From assembly GCA_021296135.1 (NCBI GenBank), contig JAGWAZ010000002.1:1-64000 (forward strand): a stretch of DNA of 64,000 bases, written 5' to 3'. Position numbers and translations under genes: made by a program. Each line of letters opens with the position of its first letter. The first letter of the stretch is position 1. Of the stretch, positions 34,544 to 56,419 are shown piece by piece. Origin of the DNA: Chlorobiota bacterium. Its GTDB lineage: Bacteria > Bacteroidota > Ignavibacteria > OLB7. The notes below the pieces were generated by a model, which was not told the DNA's origin, did no database searches, and worked only from the letters and a program-made list of their open reading frames with translations.

Positions 34544-36832
34544 ATGACGATTATTCAATCAACGTTCTCATACGTAGCAGTATTTCTTCTGACCTTGAGC
34601 TTTATCTGGGCACCCGACCTTTCAGGGCAGGTTATTATAGAATCATGGGAGGTCTTCAGCGCACTTGACAGATCCACTGATGTTGCCGTAGATGGAGAGG
34701 GAAAAGTTTGGGTTGGATCGACCGGAGGAGCATACCAATTTGATCCAGTTACCAGAGAGGCCACTGTCTATCGGACGAATAATGGATTGCTCAGATTGAA
34801 CGTGACGGCTGTTGGTGTTGACAGAGAGAGCGATGATGTCTATTTCGGTGGTGATAACGGCGCAATTTCAATCCTGCGCCAAGGGGGATGGTGGACCTAT
34901 GTTACCGACATCACGCGACGTTCTCAGTCGCAACGAGCTATTAACGGCTTTGCTTTTGCTAACGGGCTTGCTTACATCCTTACGGAGTTTGGTGTTGCCG
35001 TCTTCGACCCATCTGACAGCGTAATCCGGGAGTCATGGACCCGGCTTGGGTCAATACATCCGAACACTTCTGTAAACGATCTGGTTTTCTACAATGATTC
35101 GGTCTGGTTGGCAACGCCGTTCGGTGTTGCCGTAGCCCAGTCTACCGGCAAATACCTTGCCGATCCTTCGAATTGGACTGTTTACGATTCAGTCTCCCTC
35201 TGTAGTAGTCTGAAAGCTCTCTCTTTAGCCGTTGTTGACGGTTCTTTACTTATTGGTACTGCCGATGGCGGTTGTGAATATATTGATGGAGTATTTACTA
35301 AACGAGGCGATCTTGGTGGAAGTATCAGGTTCGGTACTAACGGCGACCAGGTTGTTGCGGGAAATGATTATAGGCTTTACAGACGGGAGCAGAACGGACT
35401 GTTTCGTGAGGTAGGAGAACTGTCCGATCGTCTTACTGACGTCGTTGCTCTGCCGGACGGATCACCTCTCGGTTCTCTTAAACGTACCGGGGTTGCGTTT
35501 CTCTCATCAGATTCGGTTGAACTCTTTGCACCAAACGGGCCTTCCTCTAACAGATTCGTCGATCTAACGTTTGGAGCTGATGGTTCTCTTTGGGGAGCCA
35601 CTTTTGATGATGGTGTTGTTCGATTGAATGAAGGAGAATGGTTTAACTATGATGCTGCCAACACGGTGGGACTTTCTACGAACTCCGCAAGGCAAATCGA
35701 GGATGATGACTTCGGCCGAGTCTGGGTCTCAGCTTATGGAGATGGAATGTACATTTTCCAACCTGAGAATGATGGTTCGTCAAAGGTGGATGTGCAGCAC
35801 TATGATGAGACGAACTCACCATTGAGGGGGATAAACACAAATGCTGCCTATGTGATTTGTTCCGACATCTATGCAGACGGGTTTGGTACAACCTGGTTCA
35901 TCAATTGGGATAACACTTCGGGAATTCGTGGTGCGGTTCTTCTGGCAAGCGTTTACGATCCTAAGACCGGTGTCGATAATTTTCACCTTTTTCCAGCCTC
36001 TTCGACCTTCCCGGAACTGACTCGTGCGTACGCACGCCTGTCGATCGACTTTAACGGCACAATCTGGCTTGCTTCCGAGAATCAGAGCGGACTCCTCTAC
36101 TTCATTCCTGGCCAAACGCTCAACGATCAGGGTGAGTGGAGGCGCATAAGGACTGCCGATGGCTTGATCTCAAACGACCAGAATGCTCTTCTGGTCGATC
36201 CGGATGGGGAAGTATGGATTGGAACGCCAAAGGGATTGACTGTCCTGGTGAATCCTGGGGCGGTTCGGAACAATGGATCAAACGCGGCGATCTTCAGGGA
36301 AATTCGTTCTCTTAAGGATGTTGTTATCCGCGATATTGCCGTTGACGCTTTGAATAGAAAGTGGGTAGGTACCGATAATGGTCTTTTTGTTCTTTCAAGC
36401 GATGGTACAGAACTGTTGGAAACTTATACGGAGTCAAATTCTTCTCTTGTTAAGAATGAGGTACTGGCCGTTTTGCCTAACAATAAGACAGGGGAAATAT
36501 ACATTGGTACCGGATCGGGGTTGAACAAAATCCAAACCGAGGCGATTGAATCGTCGTCCGACCCCGATCAGATTCAAGTTTCACCACAACCTTTTGATCC
36601 TACTCGTGATCAATCCCTGCGGATCACAGGACTTCCCTTGAACAGCAGAGTGAAAATTCTGAAGCTTGATGGTTCCCTTATCACAGAGTTTCGTGCACCA
36701 GGTGGTGATGTCGGGTTCTGGACCGGAAGAGATGCCCGCGGTGAGTTGGTTGCGAGTGGTGTCTATATTGTCGCGGCAGAATCAGCCCTTGGTGAGACAG
36801 TTATAGGGAAAATTGCAGTTGTTCGACAATAA
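34544..36832 (+). CDS. Two-component-regulator-type beta-propeller protein, exported, with FlgD/T9SS-like C-terminal domain
   Basis: Repeats such as DVAVDGEGKVWVGSTGGAYQF and GEVWIGTPKGLTVL; C-terminus LNSRVKILKLDGSLITEF...GFWTGRDARGELVASGVYIV. Confidence 0.85.
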   Translation: MTIIQSTFSYVAVFLLTLSFIWAPDLSGQVIIESWEVFSALDRSTDVAVDGEGKVWVGSTGGAYQFDPVTREATVYRTNNGLLRLNVTAVGVDRESDDVYFGGDNGAISILRQGGWWTYVTDITRRSQSQRAINGFAFANGLAYILTEFGVAVFDPSDSVIRESWTRLGSIHPNTSVNDLVFYNDSVWLATPFGVAVAQSTGKYLADPSNWTVYDSVSLCSSLKALSLAVVDGSLLIGTADGGCEYIDGVFTKRGDLGGSIRFGTNGDQVVAGNDYRLYRREQNGLFREVGELSDRLTDVVALPDGSPLGSLKRTGVAFLSSDSVELFAPNGPSSNRFVDLTFGADGSLWGATFDDGVVRLNEGEWFNYDAANTVGLSTNSARQIEDDDFGRVWVSAYGDGMYIFQPENDGSSKVDVQHYDETNSPLRGINTNAAYVICSDIYADGFGTTWFINWDNTSGIRGAVLLASVYDPKTGVDNFHLFPASSTFPELTRAYARLSIDFNGTIWLASENQSGLLYFIPGQTLNDQGEWRRIRTADGLISNDQNALLVDPDGEVWIGTPKGLTVLVNPGAVRNNGSNAAIFREIRSLKDVVIRDIAVDALNRKWVGTDNGLFVLSSDGTELLETYTESNSSLVKNEVLAVLPNNKTGEIYIGTGSGLNKIQTEAIESSSDPDQIQVSPQPFDPTRDQSLRITGLPLNSRVKILKLDGSLITEFRAPGGDVGFWTGRDARGELVASGVYIVAAESALGETVIGKIAVVRQ

Positions 36833-44778: not shown

Positions 44779-44889
44779 TTACGCATGATACATATCAAGT
44801 TGCTATTCTCAGGACCGGAAATCCTTCCGTCAAATCAAGCTAACTCTTCACGTAGAAAAACACACCGCTTCAATCGGAGTGGTGGTTTT

Positions 44890-46542
44890 ATGTGGTACGT
44901 TTTCCTCTTCGCATCTTTTTTTTATGTCACCAAGCTTTTCGCACAGGTGGAAGCACCGGTTAGTGGAGAAGGTCCGCGTTGGTTTGGAACTACCGGCAAA
45001 TCGTTGCCATACGATACCTCGGCCCAGGAAGCGTTGGCCGAACGTGCGCTCGCAACTGCCGGTTTGCTCGAAGGAGCTATTGACCCGGAACAATATCATG
45101 TGGGGCCAAATGATATTCTGACGGTTACAATCTGGACTTCCAGGACTCAGCAGTATGATATTCTCGTGACACCTGATGCCAAGGTTTTGATACAGACTGT
45201 GGGGGAGGTGAATTTAAGGGATAAAACGTTAGCAGAAGCAGAGAAGGAGATCAAAAAGGCGGTTGCTCGTGTCTATAACGTTGATGCTTCAGTCTCTTTG
45301 AGGAAGATGAGAGAGTTCAAAGTGAACGTTACCGGTGCCGTTCGGCTTCCCGGTGCTGTGACTGCAACGCCTGCGACGCGGGTTTCGGAAGTGGTTGGTC
45401 TTGCTGGCGGGCCTTTACAACGGGGAAACCAGCGTGACATACTCATCTATCGACGAAAGCCTGAAGGAACCCGTGAGGTAATTCGTGTTGATCTACTTCC
45501 GTTCTTTGCTTTTGCTGATCTCTCCAGCAATCAGTTTGTGTGTGATGGCGATGTTATCAAGGTAGGTATTGTCGATCCGGACAATGTTGTGCAGATCTAT
45601 GGTGAAGTTGCCATGGAGGGAGAGTATTCCTTCCAACCGACTGATTCGATCTCAACGATCATCAACGCATCGTTTGGGTTCACGGCTAATGCCCGTCGCG
45701 ATTCAATCCTGGTAATAAGTGTCACAGAGGCAGGGGAGATAAGCAGTGAGACGTGGCATAGTTATCTGAATGATGGAATACTCACAAATGATCGTGCTCT
45801 CCAGAACGGTGACAGGATATTTGTTTGGGGCAAACCCAGGTTTCGTCAGCGGGATCAGGTCGTTGTGGCTGGAGAAGTGCAGCAGCCGGGGGTCTATCCG
45901 ATTGTTCCTGGCTCGACAACCTTGCGGGAGTTGATTTCCATGTCGGGAGGATTTACTCAAGAGGCTTCCCTGATCGATGCAGTACTTATTCGCCGTGAAG
46001 CCATCGGACAACCCGATGAGTATTTCCGGTATGTTAGCGCGATTGAGTCTACGAATCGAACATTAGATGAGCAAGCATACTTCCGGACGAAGTTGTTGGA
46101 GCTAGCCAAGCAGGGTGAGATGGCAGTAGATTTTCGTGCTCTCATGAACGGAGATGAATCGCAGAATATCCCGTTGATGAGCAATGACTCACTTTACGTG
46201 CCGGTGCTTCTCGGCCATATTCGTGTTTCGGGCAAAGTGAAGAATCCGGGACACTTTCTTTACGAGTCGGGTTCAGAGTATGAGGCATATGTTGATAGGG
46301 CTGGAGGATATGGTTGGAAGGCGGATAAAGGTGAGACGCAGGTTATCAAGGGGAGATCAGGGGATCGATTCCCGGCTAAAGATGAAGAGAACTATATCCT
46401 TGAACCAGGAGATGCAATTTTTGTTCCTGAAGAGCAACCTTCAAATTTCTGGGAAAGTTTTACGATTGCGTTAACGATTGCGACGCAAACGACTGCGATA
46501 GTTGCTCTTGTCATAAGTCTGACCGGAAGCAACAATCCGTAG
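44890..46542 (+). CDS. Polysaccharide export protein, Wza-like, with SLBB domains
   Basis: YHVGPNDILTVTIWTSRTQQYDILVTPDAKVLIQTVGEVNLRDKTLAEAEKEI and repeated SLBB-like VTGAVRLPGAVTA, VAGEVQQPGVYPIVPGSTTLRELISMSGG. Confidence 0.9.
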   Translation: MWYVFLFASFFYVTKLFAQVEAPVSGEGPRWFGTTGKSLPYDTSAQEALAERALATAGLLEGAIDPEQYHVGPNDILTVTIWTSRTQQYDILVTPDAKVLIQTVGEVNLRDKTLAEAEKEIKKAVARVYNVDASVSLRKMREFKVNVTGAVRLPGAVTATPATRVSEVVGLAGGPLQRGNQRDILIYRRKPEGTREVIRVDLLPFFAFADLSSNQFVCDGDVIKVGIVDPDNVVQIYGEVAMEGEYSFQPTDSISTIINASFGFTANARRDSILVISVTEAGEISSETWHSYLNDGILTNDRALQNGDRIFVWGKPRFRQRDQVVVAGEVQQPGVYPIVPGSTTLRELISMSGGFTQEASLIDAVLIRREAIGQPDEYFRYVSAIESTNRTLDEQAYFRTKLLELAKQGEMAVDFRALMNGDESQNIPLMSNDSLYVPVLLGHIRVSGKVKNPGHFLYESGSEYEAYVDRAGGYGWKADKGETQVIKGRSGDRFPAKDEENYILEPGDAIFVPEEQPSNFWESFTIALTIATQTTAIVALVISLTGSNNP

Positions 46543-46586: not shown

Positions 46587-47849
46587 ATGTGTATGGATAA
46601 TCAACGCTTGAATGAGGGGGAGAGTACCTTGTTCCCTGAGACCCCTCAACAAAGTTCAGCACGACTTTACGATTACCTTGTGGTCGTTTGGCGGCACAAA
46701 CGTTTCTTTGTCATCTTCACGATAGTTGGTCTTCTTCTTGCAATAGCCTATTCTCTGACCATCCCCTACACGTATGTTGCCACTGCAACGTTAATGCCGC
46801 CTGAGCGGGAATCGGGGTCACGGTCAAATTTTACATCGCTCATACAATCGGGTGGTATAGACCTGTTCGGTCTTGGAGAAACTTCTTCAGGGCGCATCTT
46901 TATAGAAATGCTTCAGAGTCGCACACTTGCCGACAGCTTGATAGAGCGATTGGATCTGATGGAGCGACTTGGACTCCCGGAAAGCCGTATTGTTGCGATA
47001 GATGAGTTGAAGGGGAAAATCGAGGTTGAAGAAACGAAGTCAGGCGTCATTATGATCGGGTTCAGCATAGGCACGCCCCGGTTCCCGAGTGATGAAGATA
47101 TTACCAAAGCGAAGACTCTTTCGGCAGAGATTGTGAACGAGGCCATCGAAGTCCTTGATATTCTGAACAGGGAGAAGATGGTCACTCAAGCGAAGAGCTC
47201 TCGTGAGTTCCTTGGTCGTATGGTAGAGTTGAAGCAAGCCGAGCTTGACTCAGCCCGACTGAGGATGGCTACGTTTCAGAAAGAAAACCGGGCCTTTGCT
47301 GTCGATAAACAATTAGAGCTTGTGGTTAAGTCGCTCGCTGAAACTCAGTACAGGATTCAGACGCTTGAGCTTGAGATTGCTTCAGTGGAGCAGGAATTCC
47401 GGCCTGACGCACAGGTCCTTGCCAATATGAGGGGAGAGCTTGCGGAGCTACGACAACAGCAAGCAGCAATGTCTACAAGAGATGTCCTGGGTATGAATCT
47501 GGACAATGCTCCCGATATTGCTATGGAGTATTTGAAGCGGCGACTTGATCTTGAGGTGGCAACGCAAGTATACTCCTATCTCGTGAGCCAGTACAATTCC
47601 GAACAGGTGCAGGAGGCACGTGACTTGCCAACAATTTCGGTGCTCGATCCGGCTGTTCCGCCTGAGTATCGTTCCGCTCCTCGCCGTACGTTCCTGGTAA
47701 TGATCTCATTTTTCATCATAGTCATAATTGGCGTTGTGCTGATCTTTTTGCTCGAATGGTTTGGCAAAGATGTTCGCAGGTTCAGTTCCGATTACTTCCC
47801 TCGATGGGTTAAACGAATCCTGCGTCTTCCTTCTACTTCCGGAGGTTGA
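46587..47849 (+). CDS. Wzz/GumC-type chain length determinant protein
   Basis: N- and C-terminal TM segments, PYTYVATATLMPPE, coiled-coil body and LDPAVPPEYRSAPRRTFLV; no kinase domain. Confidence 0.88.
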   Translation: MCMDNQRLNEGESTLFPETPQQSSARLYDYLVVVWRHKRFFVIFTIVGLLLAIAYSLTIPYTYVATATLMPPERESGSRSNFTSLIQSGGIDLFGLGETSSGRIFIEMLQSRTLADSLIERLDLMERLGLPESRIVAIDELKGKIEVEETKSGVIMIGFSIGTPRFPSDEDITKAKTLSAEIVNEAIEVLDILNREKMVTQAKSSREFLGRMVELKQAELDSARLRMATFQKENRAFAVDKQLELVVKSLAETQYRIQTLELEIASVEQEFRPDAQVLANMRGELAELRQQQAAMSTRDVLGMNLDNAPDIAMEYLKRRLDLEVATQVYSYLVSQYNSEQVQEARDLPTISVLDPAVPPEYRSAPRRTFLVMISFFIIVIIGVVLIFLLEWFGKDVRRFSSDYFPRWVKRILRLPSTSGG

Positions 47850-47855
47850 GTTCGT

Positions 47856-49055
47856 ATGAATTCGGGGACTACAACTTCGGGCGATAGCTTGGAACAGATC
47901 AGGGTACTTGCTATTGACAAAACGGCTGTACTGGCGCATGTTCGTGATCGGTGGGACAGACTTTCGGCACACCAGGAGATCGATCTTGCTCTACTTTCAC
48001 CCGATTCATGGATAGAAAACTTTCGCACCTACCGATTTACATCTTCAGATGCCTATCATTTCAAGGCCGTCGTGGGGAAGGTTATCGGGATTGGCCGTGA
48101 GTTGAAAGCGATCTATCGTTCGGGATTGTTCAAAGCGTTTCGTCAGACTCGTCCTGAAGTTGTGCTGATGTTCGAGGAGTCCTTCTCCTTCTTTGCTCTG
48201 CAAACACTTATTGCCCGGAGGCTATTCGCTCCGAATGCCAGGTTGGTCTTCTACAGCAACAACGTTACTTCATATAAAATTCCTGGCTACAGGCTTTCTA
48301 GACTCTACCGTGCGATAGCCAGGATTGTCACTCCACGTTGTGATGTAGGATTATGTGTGAACGATGCCGCCGAGAGAGTCCTCCGGGAAGCGGGCTATGG
48401 AATCGAAATCCGCACGCTCTTCTATGGGATTGATGAACGCCGGTTTGCTCCTGTCGAACGGATAAAAGCACGGAATGAGGTAGGCCTTTCCCCCGATCAA
48501 AGAGTCTTGCTCTATGCGGGTCGTTTGATTGAATTGAAGGGAGTACAGGATTTGATCGCAGCCTTTGAGGGCCTGTACAAGAGACGGCCAGACGATAAAT
48601 TAAAGCTTCTGATCGTCGGTGATGGGCCTTATAGAGAAGCGTTGCTTCAACAGGCAAATGCTCTTGATGCAAAAGAAAGAATTGAGTTCCGTCAGGTAGT
48701 TCCGATCGAGTCGATGCCGACCCTGATAGGCGCCTGCGACATGTTGGTTCTTCCCTCACGGAAAGAATTCAACGAACAGTTCGGGCGTGTGAATGCTGAA
48801 ACGATGCTGTGTGGAACAACTATAGTAGCATCGACAAGTGGAGCGATCCCGAAAGTGTTAGGCGAAAACGGTTTTGTTTTCGAGGCCGGTAATGTTGAGG
48901 AATTGACTGAGAAGATTATCTATATACTTGAGCATCCTGGTGAAGCAGAGGACCGAAGAACCAAGGGGCGAGCTTATGCTTTGAAGCACTATTCTACTCA
49001 GGCGGCTATTAGGAATCTGCTTCAACTTATTAAAGATATGACCGGAGAACGATAA
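47856..49055 (+). CDS. Glycosyltransferase family 4 protein
   Basis: VLLYAGRLIELKGVQDLIAAF, LLIVGDGPYREALLQQA and FNEQFGRVNAETMLCGTTIVASTSGAIPKVL. Confidence 0.92.
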   Translation: MNSGTTTSGDSLEQIRVLAIDKTAVLAHVRDRWDRLSAHQEIDLALLSPDSWIENFRTYRFTSSDAYHFKAVVGKVIGIGRELKAIYRSGLFKAFRQTRPEVVLMFEESFSFFALQTLIARRLFAPNARLVFYSNNVTSYKIPGYRLSRLYRAIARIVTPRCDVGLCVNDAAERVLREAGYGIEIRTLFYGIDERRFAPVERIKARNEVGLSPDQRVLLYAGRLIELKGVQDLIAAFEGLYKRRPDDKLKLLIVGDGPYREALLQQANALDAKERIEFRQVVPIESMPTLIGACDMLVLPSRKEFNEQFGRVNAETMLCGTTIVASTSGAIPKVLGENGFVFEAGNVEELTEKIIYILEHPGEAEDRRTKGRAYALKHYSTQAAIRNLLQLIKDMTGER

Positions 49056-49100
49056 GCGTTGCATACCCTGTTAGCTGATAGAACGCGCCGTGAAACGGCA

Positions 49101-50438
49101 ATGACACAGGATCGCTTCCTTCGCGACCCTATAGGCATGCTCATGCTTGTTCTGAGTGCGTTTATTCTGGGGTATGGTGGTGTCGGGTGGATAGAAACTC
49201 CTTTTCGAATCAAGTTCTTCGAGGCATGGGCCGGGGCAATTTTCTCCGGGATTGAGGTCATCATTTTGCTATTACCCTGTCTTGCCATGATTCGCCGCAT
49301 TGTCAGTGATGACTTCTACATATCACCATCCCGGTTGACCATGCCTGTTGTACTACTTGCTCTGTACATGGCGATCATCCCTTTCATCAGGATGACTTTT
49401 GCCGAGGGAGGATTTCGTATCCCGATGGAGGCAAACTTTGTTCCCTTCTTTATCATTATGTTTTTTACCTGGCGTCTGATCTTTCATCCATCAGATGTGC
49501 GATTGATGGTCTGGATGTTGATCGTTTGTATCGGCTTCCGATGTGTTGAAGGGGTGGCAATATGGTTCAGCAACGACATAATCTGGGGGCTCCTGACAGG
49601 TTGGAGAGATGGATTACTTCTGTCGCTCGGTCTGTGTGGTGCGTTGTTTGCCTACGTTATCAGACCGGAAGGTGAAGAATGGTACGCAAAGATTCGCAAG
49701 GCTTTGTATATGATTTTTCCCCTGGTGATTTTTGTCTTTATCGCTTCGATGCGGCGTTCCTATATGCTCGGCCTTGTGCTCACAATTCCAATCCTGGCAT
49801 TCTATCTCAAGCCCGCGGAGAGGAAGCGTCTTTTCAGGATTTTGCTTCTGGTTGCACCGTTGTTCATTGCTGCCATCTTTATAGTGGGAGCAGATCGTTT
49901 TACCAATCGAATAAGTGGGATTACTTCTCCAGGAGAAGAAAGCTCTGCAGCATGGAGGGTAATTGAGTACTACAACGTCTATCGGATGGCCCTCGAACGT
50001 CCGCTTTTTGGTTGGCCCTGGGGGTTTGCGTTCATTAATTATACCGGGATTGAGTTAACCTGGCTGAATATCCTGATCCCTCATAATGTCTATCTGTATG
50101 TTGTCATGCGTAGTGGACTTGTTGGCCTTGTCTTTTTTATCTGGTTGATCTGGAGATATGTACGACTTAGTCTCGATACCGTCAGAAATACTCCTTCACC
50201 AGGATACAGGTTCCTTGCTCTCTGGATGGCGAGTGCAACATTCCTTGTTGTCACTTCCGGTATAACAAACCCTGTCTTTGCCAGTAAATTGATAATTCTC
50301 ATCCCCTTTTTGATGACTCTTACGAGTTTTCTCCCAGGCGCTATCAGATCAAACAACAAAGGGGAAAAAAAATCCCTTGCATACTATCACGATTCGGCTG
50401 ATCTTTTCGTCAAAGAAAGGAACCATTCATCATTTTGA
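49101..50438 (+). CDS. O-antigen ligase/polymerase-like membrane protein
   Basis: Multi-TM protein with AAWRVIEYYNVYRMALERPLFGWPWGFAFI and NILIPHNVYLYVVMRSGLVGLVFFIWLIW (Wzy_C/WaaL-like); ORF extends to TTG at 49059. Confidence 0.85.
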   Translation: MTQDRFLRDPIGMLMLVLSAFILGYGGVGWIETPFRIKFFEAWAGAIFSGIEVIILLLPCLAMIRRIVSDDFYISPSRLTMPVVLLALYMAIIPFIRMTFAEGGFRIPMEANFVPFFIIMFFTWRLIFHPSDVRLMVWMLIVCIGFRCVEGVAIWFSNDIIWGLLTGWRDGLLLSLGLCGALFAYVIRPEGEEWYAKIRKALYMIFPLVIFVFIASMRRSYMLGLVLTIPILAFYLKPAERKRLFRILLLVAPLFIAAIFIVGADRFTNRISGITSPGEESSAAWRVIEYYNVYRMALERPLFGWPWGFAFINYTGIELTWLNILIPHNVYLYVVMRSGLVGLVFFIWLIWRYVRLSLDTVRNTPSPGYRFLALWMASATFLVVTSGITNPVFASKLIILIPFLMTLTSFLPGAIRSNNKGEKKSLAYYHDSADLFVKERNHSSF

Positions 50439-50452
50439 GATATAACCTCTCT

Positions 50453-53400
50453 ATGCACGTACGCAGTTTACTCAGTATCACAGCCTTGCTGCTCCTGACA
50501 GCGTTCCGTTCAACCTATGCCCAAGGTGATCAGGCGTTCCCACATCCTCAAGCTGAAGTGCGGATCATCACGAGTGATGTTTCATCAGTAATCCTTGAAG
50601 TAAATCAGCTTAAACCCGTCCTGGATTCAGAGGGGTTTCTGGTTCATAATGCACGCCGCTATCTCTTCAGGGAGGAGTTTAATGCCCTTCCGGAATTGCA
50701 CTTCAGATTGGCAGTTCCAACAAATGCCGGCAGCCTCAGAGTATCAGTTCAAAAAAATGGAGAGAACGTCGAAGGGCTTGGGTCTCAAGGAGTTGTCAAT
50801 GGCCTTAATTCGCAACAGCGCGAGGAGATTGAGATTCTTGGAGAGTCAAGACTTCGTTCCCTGCGGACCGTTTTCATTGTATGGCGCCCCTTTCGACTGC
50901 AAGGAAGATCGCTGATCTGGTCACCCGAAGCTACTATCAAGCTTGAGTGGGACGCAACGGGCGACATGGAGAAGGGAGAGGGTATGATTGCCGAGGAGAT
51001 TCCGGTGATTGAAGAGGAACTCCGAAAATCTGTTCTGAACTATGACCAGGTACGATCGTTGCCCGGGTTTTCGACATCAACACAAAGAACACTTCTAAGC
51101 CGGGCAGATTCTGATTGGGGCTTAGGTGAAGAGGCACTGATTTTGCTGGTTCCGGAGACCGGAATTTATACGCTAAGTATAAAAGAGCTTGTTGCGGCAG
51201 GATTGCCTTCTGGTGTTAATATCAACGATCTCCGCCTTCGAAATCGAGAAGAATTCGTTGAAATTCTCGTTTATGACAATGGTATAAAGAATGTGTTGGA
51301 TGCCGAGGACGTTCTGGAGTTTCTTGGTGTGCGCAATCCGGGTGAGCCTGGCATTTATTTTAACGAGATTACCGATACCAATGCTTACGTGTTGACGTGG
51401 AGTGGGGGAGAGGGCAATCCCCCAGTAATAGTGCAGAGCAAGCAGAACCAATATGACAACGTAATTGAGTCATACGATTCAACAATCCATATTGAAAAGG
51501 AAGAGTTCTGGTTTGGAGGATTGACGCTGCCGAAATATTTGGATGGCGACGTCCGTACGCTCCATACGACCGAACGTGTTCCACATGAAAGGTTCTATTG
51601 GCGTAAATCAAGACTGACGATACAGAATCCACTCACCTTCGACTGCTCTCCTGTATATGGGCCGGGATTACGAACAACTATGGACGTACGCGTTGCTGGC
51701 ATTACGTATGTGGATGTTGCCAAAGGTTCCGTATCCCCTCCGCAGGAGATGACGTTCATTCTGAATGGTATTACAATAGGAACGGCATCGATTCGAGACA
51801 CCGCAGATACAACAGTCTCCTTTTCATTCCCTTCAAATTATCTCATAAACGGAACCAACAAGCTCATCGTTCGACTTACCCCGCATGATAGTATTAGGAA
51901 CGAAGTGATTATTGACTATCTGGAGTTGGAAGGACGGTGGTATGCTATGGCAGAGAACCATTCGTTAGTGGTGCCTGCAACTCCAGCTCTTCATACCGGA
52001 CTCTCCATTGTCGGTTTGCCAGGACCTGATGTCGGTTTGCCAGGACCTGATGTCCGGAGCATAGTTTCCGGGGAAACCTATCGTGCTGACTCCGTGGAAC
52101 GGGGTTATCTATTCAGACTCTCTTCCAGGGCCGGAACTGCCCTTCGCGGATTTCCCGGCTTTTACGCTAAGGTAGGGGAGGAGCAAGCTGTAGCTGATGC
52201 TCCCGGGAGAGTTGGTGTCATGGTTGTGGAAGTGGAGCCAAACTCTGAGGGGGGGCGTATCCTCCGAAGTGAACATTTCAAGACGGGAGAATCGTTCGAT
52301 GGGTGTGACGCGTTTGACAAAGCGGCCGATTTCCTCGACGAAGTCGAGGATAGCAATATTGTCCTGGCTGGACTTGCGTTTGCAACGGGTTGCAAAGAGA
52401 AGTCAGAGGCCTTTATCCAAGCATTTAAGGGACTTGGAAGCAGAGTAGTAAGTGAAAAGGATCTGTTTGCAGGTGCCTGGGTCTTTGCAGCGAGGAAGGG
52501 GGACCCAAACTCAGCGGTTGAGAAATTTGTGGCGGATGATCAGGGGATAACGGCTAACCTGTTCATTCCCGATCCAAATGGAAATAGGTGGAGAGCCGTA
52601 GCTCCAATATCAGGAGGCAATGGGGAAGAGGTCACCATCAGCACCCTTCTCGAACCCAGAATCCGACATCATAATGGTGACCAACTTATAGAAACGACAA
52701 ACCAGGCCGACCTGATTATCATCACACACTCAGCCTTCGCAAGTGAGGCTGAAAGACTTGCTTCACATCGTCGTTCACATGATGGCTATTCCGTCGTAGT
52801 TGTAGACATTGAAAGAATCTATGATGAGTTTAATGATGGAGTAAAGGATCCGGTAGCAATTCGACGCTTCCTTCAGTATGCCGATACGAACTGGGCAGAA
52901 CCCAAGCCTGCTTTCGTGACGCTCTTTGGAGATGCTTCGTGGGATTCGCAGCAACGAATGCTCGGGTCGATTATGATCGATTATATCCCGAGTTTTGGAG
53001 TCCCATCGACCGATCAACTCTATGTGGTTGCCTTTGGGGATACCACACTCACTCCCCGTCAATTCATCGGACGACTTCCGGCTACATCGTCGGCCGATGC
53101 TAAGGCAATTGTCGACAAGCTGATCGAGTACGACTCTCAGCCTCCAGCCCGATGGAACAAAAGGTTTGTCTTTGCAACCGGGGGATTGAAGGTGAGAGAG
53201 CGCGACCGGTTGCGCGATGATGCGTTGATCTTGGCCGGGAATGTGACTGGAAGTCCTCTTCAAGGAGAAGCGATTGTCATCTCCCGGTCAGGGCAGACCG
53301 ACAGTGACTTGAGTTTGCCAAGCACAGTGGATGGTGATACTGTCAGAAGAGAAGTTAATAGAGGGGCGGTATCCCTCGACTTCAACGGTCATGGTGCAAC

Positions 53401-56400
53401 TACAACCCTTGATTTGAACTTCGGTTATCCTGAAGATTTTGACAACGAGGGTCGCTACTTCATTTTTTCTACATGGTCGTGTCAGACCGGTCTATACAGT
53501 GATCCCGGCAAGACGCTCCGTAACGAACGGTTCGTGACAATACCGGGTAAGGGGGCAATTGCTTCGATAGGGGCGACAAGTTACTCCTTTACAAATGTCG
53601 ACTTCAAAATTCGTGAAGGCATTTACTCCAGATTTGCAGATCCTGATGGAAATGTTCGGCTTGGACCATTGTTTGCGCTTGCCAAGCATGATATGTTTGC
53701 ATTGTACAACTTCGGGTCGTTATATGAGCAATTCGGTCCCCGTTCGCGCACACATATGTTGATGTATAATCTGCTGGGCGATCCTTCCATGCGAATCCCA
53801 ATTCGTCGAACCCCAGAGCTTGCAATTCCAGGCGAATCCGCAGTTATCTTGAATGAGCAGAATAAAGAGCCGGAGTTAGGTGATACGCTTTTGTTAGTCC
53901 GTGCTGCCCTTTGGAATTACGGTCGTCCCCTGACCGGTATCCCCTTTGATTCGGGGGTTGTTGTCAGGGCAACGCTAATTGATCCACTTGGAGAGCAAAC
54001 ATCGGTTGAATTGAAGATTAGCCGTCTCGTCCGGTTCGATTCGATACATGCTACGTTGCCCATTGGAACCACTGCAGGCGAATATGTTGTGAAGCTCGAA
54101 GCAGATCCTGAAGGAGTTGTCGAAGAGACATGGCTCAAAGATAATATCCTGACGCTCTCATTCCTGCTACGTGGATCCCAACCGTTGCCCCTGGAGCCAT
54201 TACCTTATGGGGTTGTAGAGGCATATGATGATATAACGATTCGATTATTGAATCCTGCCTCTGGTCCCGGTGCAAAGTTTACTCTTGATACGGTGCCGAC
54301 GTTTAACTCGCGAGCCTTGATATCGAGCGATCAACACGGGAAAGTTGAGTTGCAGGAGTTGACGACAACTTGGGAGTTCTCAGTCCCATCGCAATTGAGG
54401 GATGCAACGCAGTTCTGGTGGAAAGCAATATCCACTTCCGGTGATCCTGACCTGGCAGAACGATTCCCTCTTGTTGAATCCTTTACAGTTGAGAGGGGCA
54501 ATCCAGATGTTGTCGAGGTGAGTGGAGTTTATCAGATGGCAACCACTCATCTTGTCGATCTGGTAAACACCCCTCAGGGGGTTGGACCTGGTACAAGAGC
54601 TGTTCCGATCTATCTCTACGCAGTCGGACAGACTCGAGTAGACAGTATAATCCCGAGTCTGGAACTGGATGGAAAGCGAATTACGGTGCGGATCGGGAGC
54701 ATAGATTATCGCAAGGGGAATGTGACCGGATTAAGTGTCATCGTACTGCCGCCAAACGATGTTGTCCCTCTGATTGATACTGTCTTCAACTTCGATAAAG
54801 TCCGGATTGCTGACTTTAAAGATCTTGTGGACAACCATATTGAGCCCGGCCAACGGGTCCTTCTTGGTACAAGTGGCATCTCATTCTTTTTCGGAGCTGA
54901 TGGTCCGAAAGAAATCAGGTCTGTACTCAAAATGCTTGGGAGCAGAGTCGCCGACGATACTCTGACTTTTCTTGATTATGAGGGGTCATATGCATTGATA
55001 GGTGGGAAGGGGGTTCCACCCGATCAGGTCAAAGAGGCCTGGCTGCCGGCACGCCCTCTCAGAAGAGAAGGGAAGATTCCTCCGTTCCCGGTCGAGTTGT
55101 TTGATACGATTACTGCTATTCCAAGGGCAGGAGTCTGGAAGAGTCCGACGTTCGGTCCGGCAACTGCCTTCCGACAAGCCACGTTCAGTCTCGATCCTGT
55201 CTCATCGGAATCCCTTGATGTTGTTGTGCTCGGAGTGCACCGCGATGGAATTCGAGATACACTGATTACCCAGATAATTTCTTCTGATCTAAAGAGTATA
55301 GATCTTCGCTCAATTGATGCTCTGGAATATCCACGGGTTGAAGTCCTGGCCGGATTTACAGCCGATACATTGCAGCGGCTTCAGTCGGTATCGGTTGAGC
55401 TTGATCCATCTCCCGAACTGGCCATCGTCCCTTCAACTGTCCGCCTCTCTCCCGATTCCATTCTTCAGGGTGATCCTGTGGCATTTGAGGCAACTGTAAT
55501 GAACCTGACTTCCTTCCAGTCAGCGACCAATGTTCAATTTCAGGTCGATGAGCTTGGAGAACTTGGTGGGATAATCGATTCAGGCATTATAGATGAAATT
55601 GCACCTCTCAACTCGGCTCAAGTAAAGCTTGCGATCAATACAAACAGATTCCGTTCGAACAGAGTATACAGGCTCCTTGTGAACTCAGATGACAGACCGG
55701 GCGAACCCTATACATATAACAATCGGCGTGGCCCCCTTCCTTTGAAGGTTGTCACCGATGGTATTCCCCCGGGCTTCGCCCTCTATGCAGATGATAATCG
55801 TTTAATCGACGGCGATTTTGTCTCGCCACGGCCAACGCTTGAAGCCCGTGTCTTTGATAACTCAGTTCTTGCTCTCGATTCAATTCAGGCGGTGACAATG
55901 GTACTTGATAACCAGTGGATTACTGTTAAGGAGGGTGGAATCCTCGAGTCTTTTGTTAAAGGCGATTATAGGGCATCATTCCGCTACACTCCTCCAGAGC
56001 CTTTAGCCGAGGGACCACATGATCTACTAGTTTTTATCAAAGATGCTTCTGGAAACGGGGACACTTCGGAAATCATAACATTCTTTGTCGAACCTGATGT
56101 GAGCCTCCGTACGGTAGCCAATTGGCCCAATCCGTTTGCAAAGAAGACAACGTTTACGTTTATGATAACAGGTGAAGCCCCGCCTGAATCTGGCGAGATT
56201 GCCATCTTTACTCCGTCCGGTAGAAAGATCAAGACAATATATTTGGGTCAGAGGGATCTTTCTGCAGGTGATCTTTCCATAGGCCATAATACTGTTGAGT
56301 GGGATGGTCTTGATGCGGACGGAGATCGGCTCGCCAACGGGGTATACTTTTACCGATTGAAAGTGAGCGCCGCAGGCAAAACAACAGAGGTGATTGAAAA

Positions 56401-56419
56401 ACTTGTGGTACTGAGATGA
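50453..56419 (+). CDS. C25-family (gingipain/PorU-like) cysteine peptidase, giant exported protein with FlgD/T9SS-like C-terminus
   Basis: Signal peptide-like start; C25 region with VTLFGDASWD, candidate His in LDFNGHGATTTLDLN and candidate Cys in IFSTWSCQTGLYSDP; MYNLLGDPSMRIP; C-terminal GRKIKTIYLG...VEWDGLDADGDRLANGVYFYRL. ORF begins at TTG 50435. Confidence 0.88.
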   Translation: MHVRSLLSITALLLLTAFRSTYAQGDQAFPHPQAEVRIITSDVSSVILEVNQLKPVLDSEGFLVHNARRYLFREEFNALPELHFRLAVPTNAGSLRVSVQKNGENVEGLGSQGVVNGLNSQQREEIEILGESRLRSLRTVFIVWRPFRLQGRSLIWSPEATIKLEWDATGDMEKGEGMIAEEIPVIEEELRKSVLNYDQVRSLPGFSTSTQRTLLSRADSDWGLGEEALILLVPETGIYTLSIKELVAAGLPSGVNINDLRLRNREEFVEILVYDNGIKNVLDAEDVLEFLGVRNPGEPGIYFNEITDTNAYVLTWSGGEGNPPVIVQSKQNQYDNVIESYDSTIHIEKEEFWFGGLTLPKYLDGDVRTLHTTERVPHERFYWRKSRLTIQNPLTFDCSPVYGPGLRTTMDVRVAGITYVDVAKGSVSPPQEMTFILNGITIGTASIRDTADTTVSFSFPSNYLINGTNKLIVRLTPHDSIRNEVIIDYLELEGRWYAMAENHSLVVPATPALHTGLSIVGLPGPDVGLPGPDVRSIVSGETYRADSVERGYLFRLSSRAGTALRGFPGFYAKVGEEQAVADAPGRVGVMVVEVEPNSEGGRILRSEHFKTGESFDGCDAFDKAADFLDEVEDSNIVLAGLAFATGCKEKSEAFIQAFKGLGSRVVSEKDLFAGAWVFAARKGDPNSAVEKFVADDQGITANLFIPDPNGNRWRAVAPISGGNGEEVTISTLLEPRIRHHNGDQLIETTNQADLIIITHSAFASEAERLASHRRSHDGYSVVVVDIERIYDEFNDGVKDPVAIRRFLQYADTNWAEPKPAFVTLFGDASWDSQQRMLGSIMIDYIPSFGVPSTDQLYVVAFGDTTLTPRQFIGRLPATSSADAKAIVDKLIEYDSQPPARWNKRFVFATGGLKVRERDRLRDDALILAGNVTGSPLQGEAIVISRSGQTDSDLSLPSTVDGDTVRREVNRGAVSLDFNGHGATTTLDLNFGYPEDFDNEGRYFIFSTWSCQTGLYSDPGKTLRNERFVTIPGKGAIASIGATSYSFTNVDFKIREGIYSRFADPDGNVRLGPLFALAKHDMFALYNFGSLYEQFGPRSRTHMLMYNLLGDPSMRIPIRRTPELAIPGESAVILNEQNKEPELGDTLLLVRAALWNYGRPLTGIPFDSGVVVRATLIDPLGEQTSVELKISRLVRFDSIHATLPIGTTAGEYVVKLEADPEGVVEETWLKDNILTLSFLLRGSQPLPLEPLPYGVVEAYDDITIRLLNPASGPGAKFTLDTVPTFNSRALISSDQHGKVELQELTTTWEFSVPSQLRDATQFWWKAISTSGDPDLAERFPLVESFTVERGNPDVVEVSGVYQMATTHLVDLVNTPQGVGPGTRAVPIYLYAVGQTRVDSIIPSLELDGKRITVRIGSIDYRKGNVTGLSVIVLPPNDVVPLIDTVFNFDKVRIADFKDLVDNHIEPGQRVLLGTSGISFFFGADGPKEIRSVLKMLGSRVADDTLTFLDYEGSYALIGGKGVPPDQVKEAWLPARPLRREGKIPPFPVELFDTITAIPRAGVWKSPTFGPATAFRQATFSLDPVSSESLDVVVLGVHRDGIRDTLITQIISSDLKSIDLRSIDALEYPRVEVLAGFTADTLQRLQSVSVELDPSPELAIVPSTVRLSPDSILQGDPVAFEATVMNLTSFQSATNVQFQVDELGELGGIIDSGIIDEIAPLNSAQVKLAINTNRFRSNRVYRLLVNSDDRPGEPYTYNNRRGPLPLKVVTDGIPPGFALYADDNRLIDGDFVSPRPTLEARVFDNSVLALDSIQAVTMVLDNQWITVKEGGILESFVKGDYRASFRYTPPEPLAEGPHDLLVFIKDASGNGDTSEIITFFVEPDVSLRTVANWPNPFAKKTTFTFMITGEAPPESGEIAIFTPSGRKIKTIYLGQRDLSAGDLSIGHNTVEWDGLDADGDRLANGVYFYRLKVSAAGKTTEVIEKLVVLR
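52010..52051 (+). repeat. Perfect 21-bp tandem duplication inside the C25 gene
   Basis: gtcggtttgccaggacctgat x2 (52010-52030, 52031-52051), encoding VGLPGPD VGLPGPD. Confidence 0.95.

Follow-up and report, generated by a model that had tools for sequence, protein, structure and literature searches.

Our analysis shows that a predicted C25 protease of the PorU2-like type has two ILEI/FAM3-type domains, one on each side of its catalytic domain, and that the two differ in age. The rear domain is ancestral and found widely across Bacteroidota, and the front copy is a local addition. The gene lies in the window, by which we mean the whole 64,000-nucleotide stretch of a Chlorobiota contig (JAGWAZ010000002.1) that was analysed. 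We tentatively read the product as a surface PorU2-like sortase whose ILEI domain ancestrally positioned an acceptor glycan and was, in this family, duplicated with loss of the canonical sugar site, an interpretation to which we give slightly less than an even chance of being right.

A PorU2-like protein with two ILEI/FAM3-type domains

The gene and its parts are as follows.

50435..56419, + strand: PorU2-like C25 sortase/peptidase gene, an unbroken open frame with orthologues in four genomes
51989..52645, + strand: family-specific inserted region, about residues 519-737, with the front ILEI inside it, directly before C25 (colinear profile alignment, P 6e-145)
52214..52561, + strand: front ILEI/FAM3-type domain, residues 594-709 (PF15711; left-out profile 2.5e-6; AF2/Foldseek)
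52715..53797, + strand: C25 (gingipain/PorU-type) catalytic domain, residues 761-1121 (PF01364, E 1.1e-66, 226 bits)
53390..53392, + strand: catalytic His986 (NGHG), H in 75/75 aligned C25 domains
53480..53482, + strand: catalytic Cys1016 (TWSCQTG), C in 75/75 aligned C25 domains
54722..55075, + strand: rear ILEI/FAM3-type domain, residues 1430-1547 (PF15711; left-out profile 5e-11; AF2/Foldseek)
56105..56416, + strand: putative C-terminal T9SS sorting-type / FlgD_ig domain, residues ~1891-1994 (FlgD_ig 1.6e-7; homologous tail in relatives)

Counted from a TTG, the encoded protein has 1994 amino acids; the ATG at 50453 is the likelier start, a signal-peptide-like stretch following right after it. 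Both the family score and the Cys/His dyad place the protein in Peptidase C25 (PF01364), and the His986/Cys1016 dyad is intact. The C-terminus scores 16.4 bits with the T9SS type A cargo model TIGR04183, whose curated cut-off is 23, and the homologous tails of relatives score 26.6 and 22.8 bits. The best curated models are those of PorU (NF033707; 258 bits, below the cut-off of 420) and PorU2 (NF052324; 231 bits, below the cut-off of 450), both strongest over the C25 part, and class relatives reach 420-429 bits for PorU2, just below the cut-off. One relative (L140), inferred to be in Bacteroidia from its model match and distance, scores 876 bits with the PorU2 model and has the same C25-ILEI-CTD layout. 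We call the window protein PorU2-like because it falls below the PorU2 cut-off while sharing this layout with a full PorU2. The name PorU2 is given only by the database model and was not found in the literature searched. The genome's other C25 protein is a true PorU (780 bits, cut-off 420) and has no ILEI domain. Of the type IX secretion parts the genome also encodes SprA, PorZ and several members of the PorV family, and it has about 80 C-terminal T9SS signals. The PorZ gene, whose product delivers A-LPS in this system, is at window positions 34544-36832 (302 bits, cut-off 260); the PorU2-like gene lies some 14 kb downstream of it.

The first-pass annotation had described a second ILEI/FAM3-like segment at 54719-55043, one of two diverged copies flanking C25. 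The peptide is indeed found there, in frame (54719-55042, residues 1429-1536); its place and frame hold, and the domain limits are better set at 52214-52561 and 54722-55075. With PF15711, for which the curated cut-off is 27 bits, the whole protein reaches 36.3 bits across two stretches, the Pfam scan placing ILEI at residues 594-690 plus the second stretch. Scanned singly, both segments fall under that cut-off (front 23.8 bits, E 6e-5; rear 20-21.9 bits, 21.9 bits corresponding to E 2.5e-4), and ILEI is the sole Pfam match of either. A left-out profile, for which only the rear copies from other families were used and the window's family was excluded, detected both copies (rear 5e-11, front 2.5e-6), and its reversed-sequence controls gave nothing below 0.45. 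An hhalign comparison of the front copies of four proteins with the rear copies of other families gave P 5.7e-13. PF15711, the left-out profile and hhalign thus agree on two diverged copies around C25. A PF15711 search across the whole genome returned zero matches, which we attribute to the poor sensitivity of that search.

The relationship to animal proteins emerges at the profile level: PDB searches with each segment as a single sequence gave chance matches only, so that a profile was required. The final profile of 36 copies, all matched by PF15711 (36/36), found FAM3C (3.5e-21) and the POMGnT1 stem (2.1e-19) among PDB sequences, as well as FAM3B, FAM3A and TMEM2, with E values of 1e-16 to 1e-21 for FAM3C, FAM3B, the POMGnT1 stem and TMEM2. 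AF2 models of modest quality, built from two-row alignments (mixed front and rear four-row alignments were misaligned and excluded from structure prediction), gave a pLDDT of 70.7 for the front domain, with FAM3C at Foldseek rank 1 and the POMGnT1 stem at TM 0.53, and 56.7 for the rear domain, with FAM3C and FAM3B as best matches. The FAM3-type beta-beta-alpha fold is supported by FAM3C ranking first for both models, POMGnT1 and TMEM2 being listed too, with Foldseek E values of 0.045 or weaker. The earlier interpretation would have failed if the segments lacked a common fold; FAM3C as the top match of both models, together with the profile comparison, points instead to a shared one.

The rear domain is ancestral and the front copy local

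An ILEI match is present in 83/297 genomes of the phylum Bacteroidota, nearly all in frames of 1500-2000 amino acids, and in the full-length proteins examined the domain lies ~250-350 residues C-terminal of C25. C25 with a single rear ILEI domain (C25-ILEI-CTD) is the normal layout of PorU2-like proteins across the phylum. None of the full-length C25 proteins examined from other phyla had an ILEI domain. The front domain was seen only in the window family, in 4/4 proteins (from the window genome, SZAS-92 and two more). A colinear profile alignment of the N-terminal regions shows ~220 residues just before C25 in this family versus 60-70 elsewhere.

The paired arrangement had been described as symmetrical. 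Copies do lie on both sides of C25, but the front ILEI is ~50 residues from C25 and the rear ~300, the rear domain is phylum-wide and the front one is a family insertion. On the same grounds we rejected an ancient symmetrical design. A survey of C25 homologues, which the first-pass annotation had proposed, found the paired layout in all four window-family proteins and, in the other full-length ILEI proteins examined, ILEI only behind C25. The paired architecture is a local form of the C25-ILEI protein, which is widespread but has received little study.

A recent duplication of the family's own rear copy was considered as the source of the front copy. Front copies are closer to the rear copies of other families than to those of their own, but a tree constraint joining the front with the rear copies of the window family was not rejected (p-AU 0.199). 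A 2399-residue class relative (L127:166-7362, + strand) has two tandem ILEI domains behind C25 (residues 1237-1346 and 1861-1966), an independent pair that implies that ILEI doubling occurred at least twice. A fifth genome of the family (G003, in the genus of G001) is the only one with no ILEI match, and its PorU2-like gene appears lost or unassembled.

Sugar-contact residues are kept in many relatives and absent from the window family

In the POMGnT1 stem, R129, D179 and R207 touch the sugar (PMC9802357; see also PMC9437275), and in Caenorhabditis elegans FAMP-1 GlcNAc is bound by the FAM3-like copy bearing the triad and not by the one that lacks D179 and R207 (PMC9802357). The placement of these positions in our alignment is consistent with the residue spacings in 5GGJ (50 and 28, that is 179-129 and 207-179). 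Outside the window family the triad is complete in 16/57 copies and at least two residues are present in 26/57, R129 not being scorable in 13 copies in which the match stops short. The window protein has V/F/A at these positions in the front domain and T/G/E in the rear (0/3 in each), and none of the 24 triad positions is retained in the eight copies of the family.

Glycan binding, which the first-pass annotation had suggested for both domains, is made plausible for the ancestral rear domain by the triad kept in many relatives and by the location of the gene within polysaccharide clusters. Binding at that site is unsupported in the window protein, since all eight family copies lack the contact residues; the case for glycan binding is stronger in the relatives. 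The triad is also missing from many single-copy relatives, so its loss is not in itself a mark of duplication, and glycan binding at that site would be no general property. A 600-residue frame (L129:3949-5748) with no C25 domain has an ILEI domain in which the sugar triad is kept.

These patterns bear on whether the ILEI domains could be ligand-free, with a purely structural part as spacers within a long surface protease or as modules that stabilise it. The absence of the triad from both window copies and from many single copies elsewhere fits such a role, as does the retention of the fold in copies that have diverged to 14-40% identity. We consider it unlikely, with some appreciable weight left to it, because the triad positions are retained across the phylum in 45-47% of rows versus a background of ~6% for R or D, and because the gene neighbourhood points toward glycans.

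The gene closes a polysaccharide export operon

The PorU2-like gene is the last in a Wza-Wzz-glycosyltransferase-Wzy series and, from the TTG start, overlaps the Wzy_C gene by 4 bases.

44785..46542, + strand: Wza-type polysaccharide export protein (Poly_export, SLBB), order same in three relatives
46587..47849, + strand: Wzz chain-length determinant, operon neighbour, order same in three relatives
47856..49055, + strand: glycosyltransferase (Glycos_transf_1), operon neighbour, order same in three relatives
49059..50438, + strand: Wzy_C O-antigen ligase/polymerase, operon neighbour, order same in three relatives

The order Wza-Wzz-GT-Wzy-PorU2 is conserved in four genomes, and many PorU2-like genes, both within the class and outside it, adjoin glycosyltransferases, WecG/TagA enzymes or sugar-modifying genes. 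Glycosyltransferase or Wzy genes were found near 13/20 PorU2-like loci versus 2/19 PorU loci from mostly the same genomes; the Fisher p of 8e-4 treats loci as independent and is a guide, since loci from related genomes are not. Some neighbourhood models were seeded from the tested loci themselves; a glycosyltransferase model from the window family alone gave 11/20 versus 2/19. Four class families and canonical Bacteroidia PorU2, which lies beside PorV2, were outside glycan clusters in the loci examined. Two other kinds of neighbour were observed. In four genomes of the class, the gene immediately upstream of the PorU2-like gene (L156:7466-8803, L157:8642-9982, L161:10149-11486 and L163:8500-10017) codes for a conserved protein of ~447 amino acids that has about four hydrophobic segments and matches no Pfam or NCBIfam model. 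PorU2-like genes also adjoin PorV2 (L167:8645-10063) and PorD (L162:9945-10874, family f10), a tie to type IX secretion.

The adjacency of canonical PorU2 to PorV2, and of one family's PorU2-like gene to PorD, would suit domains that bind protein instead of glycan, be it a T9SS substrate (its CTD or its body) or a PorV-like shuttle partner; the FAM3 proteins are extracellular signalling proteins, and both window copies have lost the sugar site. We judge this improbable given that most class members, like the window family, have polysaccharide genes as neighbours. Peptidase family C25 includes true endopeptidases and the genome already has a separate PorU, but that the window protein is an ordinary gingipain-like endopeptidase secreted for feeding, with no anchoring role, has a similarly low probability in view of its closest models, the sortases PorU and PorU2, and its conserved position as the last gene of a polysaccharide export operon.

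A model for PorU2-like proteins

Porphyromonas PorU (PG0026) makes a sortase-like cut of the C-terminal signal and joins cargo to A-LPS (PMC4560394), and PorZ binds A-LPS and hands it to PorU (PMC8545088). The simplest reading of a PorU-like enzyme that has a built-in domain of sugar-binding type and whose gene lies in polysaccharide clusters is a sortase that would position its own glycan acceptor. Developing the sortase reading with which we began, the gene product would be a cell-surface cysteine transpeptidase or protease of the PorU2-like branch of C25, activities that sequence cannot separate, secreted via type IX and probably co-produced with the proteins of the Wza/Wzz/glycosyltransferase/Wzy operon. 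Like PorU, it would cleave secreted cargo and then attach this cargo to a surface glycan that the adjoining operon makes or exports; its probable role is to anchor secreted proteins at the cell surface. The ILEI domain could act in cis as an acceptor-positioning module, the counterpart within the enzyme of the separate A-LPS-binding PorZ that serves PorU. In the window family the ILEI domain is doubled and both copies lack the canonical sugar-contact residues, so that one has to suppose either a different ligand or a structural role: the copies may now recognise cargo, a partner protein or a glycan of altered structure, or be spacers beside the active site.

A bolder version, which we regard as speculative and rather unlikely as a whole, is that PorU2 serves type IX secretion as a second sortase, one coupled to glycan, with its own FAM3/POMGnT1-type acceptor domain, attaching cargo to exopolysaccharide or O-antigen exported by the operon, and that the doubled ILEI of the window family grips the substrate on either side and has a new specificity. 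The searches made found no literature linking FAM3/ILEI domains with type IX secretion. Linking a domain of sugar-binding type with a sortase-like catalytic domain and with polysaccharide operons leads directly to a testable proposal for the role of the second C25 protein, and C25-ILEI proteins offer a bacterial setting for studying the function of the FAM3 fold.

Comparison with known systems

Several characterised or modelled proteins share parts of this design. The putative T9SS sortase PorU2 (NF052324) has C25, a long N-terminal region and a putative T9SS tail in common with the window protein, and its member L140 also has a rear ILEI, to which the window protein adds an extra ILEI before C25. 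PorU, the A-LPS sortase of Porphyromonas gingivalis, shares the C25 Cys/His dyad and the putative T9SS tail, but neither this genome's PorU nor any of 19 control PorU loci has an ILEI domain, and those loci are mostly not beside glycosyltransferases. FAM3C and FAM3B (ILEI, PANDER) belong to the same domain family as the window copies but are stand-alone secreted animal proteins, whereas the window copies are fused to a peptidase. TMEM2/CEMIP (PMC9704909 for CEMIP) and C. elegans FAMP-1 (PMC9802357) resemble the window protein in having more than one FAM3/GG-type domain; unlike in the window protein, these domains are not placed around a peptidase, and one of the two FAMP-1 copies retains the sugar site versus neither in the window protein. 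The POMGnT1 stem is fused to a glycosyltransferase, and its triad is missing from both window copies, but it provides the parallel of an ILEI-type sugar-binding domain adjoining an enzyme domain, as in PorU2-like proteins.
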